From assembly GCA_021646415.1 (NCBI GenBank), contig SOEU01000002.1, forward strand, positions 310,001 through 374,000: 64,000 nt of DNA, read 5' to 3'. The notes under the pieces were generated by a model, which did not search any database, was not told the DNA's origin, and saw only the letters and a program-made list of their open reading frames with translations. Shown here in pieces: positions 41,036-43,640 of the stretch (positions are counted from its first letter, which is position 1; each line of letters begins with the position of its first letter). The translations under genes were made by a program, and so were the position numbers. The DNA comes from Candidatus Brocadia sp. Its GTDB lineage: Bacteria > Planctomycetota > Brocadiia > Brocadiales > Brocadiaceae.

Positions 41036-41290
41036 AAGGCGTTCAACCGACAAAAAACCAGGAGCACTGAGATTTCTCCAATATTTATAGTATTACCCTT
41101 TAAAACTTCTTTTTGTGTAAGTTTTCTATCGCTACAGCAAATCTATTTTGGTATGAAGTAGTGGAGTAATGGATTACAGGAATTATCTTCACAGCACTAC
41201 TCCACCACTCCATGGTAAAAATTTTTGTTGCGGCTATGCGTGCGCCGGGAGACCGCACGCCTGTTGTTCATTGTGGGCAAGAAAAAAAAC

Positions 41291-41716
41291 ATGATCCGGA
41301 TTACACGCACTATTTCAATTGATGAGGATGAAATTCGGCTGGCATTCATTCGCTCTTCTGGTCCCGGAGGACAAAATGTCAACAAGGTTGCTACGGCCGT
41401 GCAACTTCGTTTCGACGTGCACAACTCTCACTCCCTTCCTGGTGATGTCCGCGAACGTCTGGTTCGCCTCGCTGGTAAGCGTATTACCGAAGATGGTGTA
41501 CTCATCATAAACGCTCAGCGGTTCCGCACGCAAGAACGTAACCGTCAGGATGCGATTGACCGCCTGATTGAATTGATTCACAAGGCTGCTGAAAAGCCGA
41601 AACTTCGTCGTAAAACAAGGCCTACGTCTTCTTCGAAAAAGCTTCGTTTGGAATCCAAGCGCCACAGGGGTGAGACAAAACGCACGCGACGGCCTATTCT
41701 CCGTTCTGAGGACTAA
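41291..41716 (+). CDS. arfB: ArfB/YaeJ-type ribosome rescue hydrolase
   Basis: A 141-residue class I release-factor-like protein that rescues stalled ribosomes by peptidyl-tRNA hydrolysis. The GGQ motif is in SSGPGGQNVNKVATAVQLRF. The C-terminal tail is rich in Lys and Arg (KLRRKTRPTSSSKKLRLESK), as needed to enter the empty mRNA channel. I start at the ATG at 41291 (MIRITRTISID). Codon use is richer in CGT/CGC and GC than in most neighbours, like the adjacent selenoprotein gene, which may indicate transfer. Confidence 0.92.
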   Translation: MIRITRTISIDEDEIRLAFIRSSGPGGQNVNKVATAVQLRFDVHNSHSLPGDVRERLVRLAGKRITEDGVLIINAQRFRTQERNRQDAIDRLIELIHKAAEKPKLRRKTRPTSSSKKLRLESKRHRGETKRTRRPILRSED

Positions 41717-41881: not shown

Positions 41882-41965
41882 AATTTTTGTTTGAAATTCC
41901 TAAAAATAAATTTATAAAATCAGCAAAAAAGCACTATTTATCATCGGTACTGAAGGAGATACGTC

Positions 41966-42715
41966 ATGGGTGAACTGAACGAGTTTACTATTCCAGTGCG
42001 GTTGTTTCTTAAGGCATATCCGTGGCGACGGATTGATCCGGTTCCATGGGTGCCATTGAGCAAACCGCTCAGCAGGTGCCGGTTAGCCCTGATTTCCAGT
42101 GCAGGTTTCGTACTCCCCAATCAGGCCCCATTCGACGAATCTATTCGCGGGGGTGATCCGGGTTTTCGTGAAATCCCGAATGACACTAACGTTGCAACTT
42201 TGGTTGACACGCATCGAAGCGAATCCTTTAATCACTCCGGGATACGCCAGGATCCAAACCTTGCCTTTCCAATCGACCGGGTGAATGAACTTGTGAAGAC
42301 AGGACGCATAGATTCAGTAAATCACCGGCATATTTCCTTTATGGGCTCGATCACAGCGCCAGGACGTTTGATACAATATACGGCACCTGAAGTAGCACGA
42401 TTGCTGATAGATGACGGTGTCGATGCAGTTCTCCTGGTTCCGGTCTGACCGATGTGTAACCAGACCGTGGGTCTGATTGCGGCAGAACTGGAGCGGCAGG
42501 GAATCTCAACAGTAGCAATCCAACTCTTGCGGGAGGTTGCAGAACGCGTACGCCCACCACGTGCCCTGTTCGTGCCATTTCGCCACGGCTACCCTCTGGA
42601 TACACCAGGAGACTCAAAGCGTCAACATGCAGTCCTGGAAACAGCCCTACGGCTTTTCGAGGAACCATTACTCAAACCACCCGTCCTGATTGATTTCCGT
42701 CAGGATGGAGGATGA
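41966..42715 (+). CDS. GrdB/PrdB-family selenoprotein read through an in-frame TGA
   Basis: A 249-residue protein in one frame interrupted only by TGA at 42446-42448 (codon 161). Upstream it reads DDGVDAVLLVPV; downstream it goes on with PMCNQTVGLIAAELERQGIS in the same frame. The family (selenoprotein B of glycine/betaine/sarcosine/D-proline reductase) is often cysteine-containing at this position (VPVCPxCxQxVGL), so TGA replaces the redox Cys to give U-P-M-C. A SECIS-like hairpin begins 8-12 bases after the TGA. The full length, clear GGAG ribosome site (before 41966) and intact C-terminal end (FVPFRHGYPLD) argue against decay. Reaction and substrate are unknown for this small stand-alone type. 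No sel genes lie in the window. Confidence 0.85.
42456..42480 (+). promoter_or_regulatory. Putative bacterial SECIS element
   Basis: CAGACC (42461-42466) pairs with GGTCTG (42470-42475) around the loop GTG. The stem extends downward through A-T, A-T, T-G and G-C pairs with one C-A mismatch (42456-42460 with 42476-42480). The loop starts with G and lies 18 bases after the TGA, within the window known for bacterial SECIS elements (roughly 16-37). Confidence 0.6.
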
Positions 42716-43082
42716 CTTTTATTGCCGGGATTAAATCAGGTTTTCGGCAGCAGCACAAATTACAACTTTCCCTTCCTTAACGGGTAATGTCATTGAATTA
42801 AGCGAGAGAGTGTTTCTCTTCTGGGCAAAGCCCGAAGGGCTGGCAGGGTATAGCCCAGGGCGTCAGCCCTGGGATAAGGATTTAATAATATTTTTAGCCC
42901 TGAAAGGGCGACATATTATCTTAATTCAATGACATTGCCCTTGATGTGAGGGGTAGGGGAGGGTGATCAGCCGTTCTCCTTCACCCTAGCTCCACCTTGT
43001 CTCCCCATTGAGCGGGAGAAACTAATTGTTTGATGTCTAAGCATGGACAGAAGAAGCATGAACATCCAGAAGAGAGTTTTTT
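42716..43082. repeat. MITE-like element bounded by 21-base inverted repeats
   Basis: Within this 367-base gap, 42782-42940 is bounded by GGGTAATGTCATTGAATTAA and its inverted copy TTAATTCAATGACATTGCCC, differing at one base. Inside are several hairpins (GGGCAAAGCCCGAAGGGCT; GCCCAGGGCGTCAGCCCTGGG; AGCCCTGAAAGGGCG). No coding sequence. The rest of the gap has a G-rich block (GAGGGGTAGGGGAGGGTG) and nothing else recognisable. Confidence 0.72.
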
Positions 43083-43640
43083 GTGACTAATAGACTTGTA
43101 AAGTCCCGTTTGCTTCTCATTCTGTTTTTATTTTCAAGTAGCTTGCTTGCATGCAATAAAGCCAAAACCACTGAAAAGCAAACAGAGACATTGGCAGAAA
43201 GTAATTCCAAGGTTTTTGACAAGAAGGGGACATCCATGCCTGAGAAAATAATCAAAAGCGACGAAGAGTGGAAACGGATACTTACACCGGAACAATATAA
43301 GATCACCAGAAAAAAAGGAACAGAACCACCATTTACAGGCAAATACAACAATTTTAAAGAAAAGGGGATATTTCAATGTGTCTGTTGTAGCAATGATTTG
43401 TTCAGGTCAGAGGCAAAATTCGATTCCGGAACAGGCTGGCCAAGCTTTTGGGAGCCGATCTCTGAACAAAACATTAAAACGACTACGGACACAAGCTTTG
43501 GTATGACAAGAACAGAAGTTTCGTGCGGCCGGTGTGATGCGCATCTTGGACACGTATTTAACGATGGCCCGCCACCAACCGGGCTCCGCTATTGCATCAA
43601 TTCTGCTTCACTCAATTTTGTTAACAAAAAAGACGAATAG
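43083..43640 (+). CDS. msrB: Lipoprotein methionine-R-sulfoxide reductase
   Basis: A 185-residue MsrB with a lipoprotein signal peptide: [17 protein letters not shown] has the lipobox LLAC, so the enzyme is probably anchored outside the inner membrane. The catalytic domain (about 55-180) has the zinc CxxC pairs CVCC and [15 protein letters not shown], and the active Cys in [13 protein letters not shown]. It is a Cys form, not a selenoprotein. The start is a GTG at 43083. It likely repairs oxidised methionine in envelope proteins. Confidence 0.93.

Follow-up and report, generated by a model that had tools for sequence, protein, structure and literature searches.

The window analysed here, a 64,000-nucleotide stretch of DNA from Candidatus Brocadia sp., contains a gene at positions 41966–42715 (Table 1) that almost certainly encodes a selenoprotein, with the UGA at 42446–42448 read as selenocysteine. 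Judged from its sequence, the product consists of one domain and is related to PrdB and to the C-terminal half of GrdB, and the gene appears to join, as a stand-alone PrdB-like member, a selenoprotein family that was first noticed in ocean metagenomes.

Table 1. Features of the selenoprotein gene and its surroundings, in window coordinates.
Feature	Position	Strand	Remarks
ArfB-type ribosome-rescue hydrolase, upstream neighbour	41225..41716	+	Same place in two other Brocadia genomes
Shine-Dalgarno-like AAGGAG, 7 nt 5′ of the ATG	41953..41958	+	From sequence
Predicted stand-alone PrdB/GrdB-like selenoprotein CDS	41966..42715	+	249 aa; ATG at 41966, stop TGA 42713–42715
TGA, predicted to be read as selenocysteine 161; opens UPMC	42446..42448	+	TGA at this aligned position in 16 distinct sequences, TGC in L011
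Cys164, proposed resolving cysteine of U-x-x-C	42455..42457	+	Invariant in eight-sequence alignment including PrdB
Bacterial SECIS-like hairpin, CAGACC-GTG-GGTCTG	42461..42475	+	12 nt 3′ of the TGA; fold and covariation
Element with 33-nt terminal inverted repeats	42770..42952		Inside the ~340 bp insertion between the selenoprotein gene and msrB
msrB, peptide-methionine (R)-S-oxide reductase with lipobox-like signal sequence	43083..43640	+	206 bits

The TGA is the sole in-frame interruption of a 249-codon frame that is free of frameshifts, and residues 1–249 of the read-through product align without gaps with a relative at 82% identity, bearing out the original prediction of a frame that is open but for this codon. 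The product contains ...LLVPV-U-PMCNQTVGL... and has no evident signal sequence. Between the window gene and L009, dN/dS is 0.21 on the 5′ side of the TGA and 0.11 on the 3′ side; the part that follows the TGA is therefore under purifying selection. A pattern search gave five relatives, and searches with tblastn and profiles placed related genes in 22 planctomycete genomes beyond the window’s own (392 were searched). The closest named relative comes from a Candidatus Brocadia MAG with the same gene order, so the source is very likely an anammox planctomycete; within the genus the gene is found in just 3 of 11 genomes.

The TGA occupies one and the same codon of the alignment in all 16 distinct sequences that bear it: the window’s, those of other Brocadia and other Planctomycetota, one from Acidobacteriota and one from a Chloroflexi MAG. 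The nearest relative that lacks it (L011, from Verrucomicrobiales) has TGC at this position, within the motif VPVCPVCNQT, in agreement with the earlier claim that the TGA falls where homologues have the cysteine of VPVCPxCxQ. Any in-frame stop could in principle be a sequencing artefact or arise by simple nonsense mutation, in which case this would be a pseudogene, and one other Brocadia copy does appear to be damaged by an internal deletion; however, the presence of the same TGA in independently assembled genomes from several phyla, accompanied by a covarying SECIS hairpin, renders that explanation exceedingly improbable. The damaged copy (G006; L055 6263–6755 on contig C190) lacks residues 39–116 and has an apparent frameshift; it could be a decaying gene or an assembly error.

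At residue 161 the remaining relatives have Cys, except for Asn or Asp in one clade and Ala in one row of the alignment. The Asn/Asp clade, which is planctomycete (L095, L097, L100 and L105), retains the second cysteine (PANxxCNQT). The fold can therefore dispense with the redox pair, which counts against the redox reading, and these proteins may do a different job.

The hairpin downstream of the TGA has a 6-bp stem and matches bacterial SECIS elements in its geometry. Taken alone, the window’s hairpin shows a modest gain in stability over shuffled sequences (z −1.96). Across the 16 distinct Sec sequences, 87.5% of the stem cells hold standard pairs, compared with 25–42% in slid controls. Five of the six stem pairs have changed on both sides among these sequences, as in the compensatory stems CACACT/AGTGTG (L013), CAGTCC/GGACTG (L090) and CGTTGC/GCAACG (L103), and the covariation score was reached by none of 500 shuffles. 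If the codons of QTVGL are varied synonymously, the complete stem arises in only 3–4% of the possible codings. The hairpin is missing from non-Sec relatives: in 10 of them the helix is 40% paired, with no excess over shuffles. Against the hairpin, pairing at its register is poor (2–4 of 6) in three Sec members (L093, L096 and L101).

The host genome (3.81 Mb in 42 contigs, with the assembly 99.96% complete) encodes tRNA-Sec (67.8 bits), SelA (554 bits) and SelD (366 bits), the last with an in-frame TGA of its own at the active site (TCGG-U-AGKI). This machinery, together with the relatives and the covarying hairpin, upholds the reading of UPMC as a selenocysteine redox motif. The broader claim that the organism makes selenoproteins is likewise supported, with selA, selC and selD all present and a qualification for selB: although SelB is present in 9 of 10 congeners, a profile search, a query with the protein of a congener and a comparison of synteny all failed to find it in the 42-contig assembly. 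The apparent SelB matches were EF-Tu-sized proteins, IF-2, LepA, TypA and EF-G-sized proteins.

If SelB had recently been lost in this lineage, the UGA would be a true stop and the gene a relic yielding a dead 160-aa fragment. The near-completeness of the assembly favors such a loss, as does the fact that a region homologous to the selB flank of the congener G005 is retained here, in rearranged form. On the other hand, SelA, tRNA-Sec and the TGA-bearing SelD are intact, selection has preserved the sequence that follows the TGA, and the surroundings of selB vary among the congeners read. Furthermore, 11 of the 12 other related genomes tested that are without SelB also lack SelA (the exception, G017, is just 85% complete), implying that the Sec trait is lost as a block. 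We thus regard a recent loss of SelB as improbable. Most likely its absence is an assembly gap and the gene is present, because this genome has SelA and a selenocysteine-type SelD, SelA and SelB co-occur, and the congeners have SelB. Several relatives, for example G004, G018 and G020, lack SelA and SelB alike, and the Sec trait is therefore patchy in the Brocadia family.

The original prediction had labelled the protein a GrdB-family member. That label holds at the level of Pfam, where the read-through protein scores 38.5 bits against GRDB (PF07355), above the gathering threshold of 22. The nearest named family, however, is PrdB (TIGR04483, 121.9 bits) and not GrdB: the profiles of GrdB and its kin score 41–57 bits, and the GrdB-type alignment starts only from about position 200 of the profile onward. 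Even the PrdB match lies below the curated cut-off of 300 bits; for comparison, Enterococcus PrdB scores 453. In an alignment of eight sequences that contains a true PrdB, positions 161 and 164 (Sec/Cys) are invariant, with VPxUPxCxQ in the window protein against GGxGTCHR in PrdB. A maximum-likelihood tree puts the window protein in a clade with support of 100/99 that comprises 10 Sec members and one Cys member and is distinct from PrdB.

No PrdA/GrdE-type partner (PF09338) was found in the window’s genome or in 32 other genomes of the family, and the same search returned six matches in an Enterococcus plasmid carrying prd genes, which served as positive control. The gene thus stands alone, outside any grd or prd cluster, as had been predicted. 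Since the partner is missing, pyruvoyl-dependent D-proline reduction and the glycine reductase cycle are both unlikely, and we rejected an amino-acid reductase function. The best named match and the shared U/CxxC position would fit the PrdB of a D-proline reductase or the GrdB of a glycine reductase-type complex, but the low score, the missing partner, the different motif and the distinct clade make either identity very unlikely.

The structure model (pLDDT 86) has UPMC opening a helix (162–177) just after a strand (154–158). Thiol oxidoreductases likewise carry their redox motif at the start of a helix that follows a beta strand. Searches of the PDB by sequence and by fold returned no solved structure resembling the protein, we found no function for stand-alone members in the literature, and in the other genera read, outside Brocadia, no recurrent gene neighbour named a pathway. 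We consider it somewhat probable that the protein is a thiol-dependent selenol reductase, a mechanism that we infer. The UGA would be decoded as selenocysteine under the guidance of the hairpin, with tRNA-Sec, SelA, SelD and a presumed SelB; the selenol at 161 would act as nucleophile on a small substrate, Cys164 would resolve the intermediate to give a selenosulfide, and thioredoxin-type donors would regenerate the enzyme. The substrate could plausibly be an oxidised sulfur compound, a peroxide or an electrophile: without PrdA/GrdE there is no pyruvoyl Schiff-base route, and the substrate is therefore probably different from those of the amino-acid reductases. The account as a whole, a selenoprotein with this proposed mechanism, is in our judgment very probably the best explanation.

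The gene order ArfB–selenoprotein–MsrB is kept in three Brocadia genomes. MsrB, with its lipobox-like LLAC, is probably a lipoprotein methionine-R-sulfoxide reductase. The stop of the selenoprotein gene and the start of msrB overlap (ATGA) in the two other Brocadia genomes, as is typical of translationally coupled genes. The insertion that lies between the two genes in the window (42741–43085) is missing from those genomes with overlapping flanking genes; it has 33-nt inverted repeats (42770–42802 and 42920–42952) and looks like a MITE-type element.

As a refinement of the selenol reductase proposal, the protein might act together with the lipoprotein MsrB encoded next to it in the repair of methionine sulfoxide; it could, for instance, supply electrons or reduce small thiols that have become oxidised. 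The overlapping start and stop codons and the conserved gene order speak for such a partnership, which we nevertheless consider unlikely: msrB does not recur beside the gene in the other genera read, the lipobox would put MsrB outside the cytoplasm, and in the window the insertion splits the two genes. With no neighbour recurring in the other genera read, the link to MsrB is a weak hint confined to the genus. More broadly, it is possible, though we suggest it only tentatively, that the window’s clade forms a new functional family with other members from Planctomycetota, Acidobacteriota and Verrucomicrobiota. Its members would be selenol reductases that need no partner: descended from the amino-acid reductase fold, they would act on a substrate of their own in anammox and other bacteria and, in Brocadia, be tied to methionine-sulfoxide repair.

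Our literature searches on anammox bacteria or Brocadia combined with selenoproteins or selenocysteine yielded no report of a selenoprotein gene; the present work documents such a gene in anammox bacteria together with its recoding signal. It also supplies genome context for abundant environmental selenoproteins that were named proline reductase on sequence only. Annotation pipelines that halt at the TGA would break the gene in two, and its active site would be lost. With no partner present, what stand-alone PrdB-like proteins reduce can be tested directly.

Among known systems, PrdB, the Sec subunit of D-proline reductase, is similar in being a single domain of ~240 aa with Sec/Cys-x-x-Cys at the same place, and annotated PrdB proteins are 27–36% identical to the window protein. 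PrdB differs in its GGxGTCHR motif and its prdA partner, whereas the window protein has VPxUPxCxQ, no prdA, a separate clade and a sub-cut-off score. In the excerpted text of a 2026 review, PrdB is described solely as a proline reductase subunit (PMC13188914). GrdB and FarB (protein B of glycine reductase and its counterpart in the fluoroacetate system; PMC10838667) share a homologous C-terminal region and a Sec motif; unlike the 249-aa window protein, which has no PF09338 partner, GrdB is ~430 aa long, with a GrdE-type partner and an STUG motif. A further group is that of the stand-alone Cys proteins annotated as “glycine/sarcosine/betaine reductase selenoprotein B family protein”, for example on Roseomonas and Haematobacter plasmids, which belong to the same family, carry VPNCPxCxQT and have no surrounding reductase cluster, but which have Cys rather than Sec, are longer, are 28–33% identical and fall in another clade.

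The original prediction also described the family as one otherwise known from amino-acid reductases. The kinship stands, but the novelty was overstated, since PrdB-type UxxC selenoproteins had already been reported to rank with the commonest ones, with 42 sequences from the Sargasso Sea (PMC1088965) and 235 from the GOS data (pfam07355; PMC2398784). Those proteins, which we liken to ours by their description, have Sec in UxxC, belong to pfam07355 and are numerous in the open ocean. They are anonymous fragments called PrdB, whereas the window gene comes with a record of partner absence, with SECIS covariation, with its gene context and with an anammox genome.
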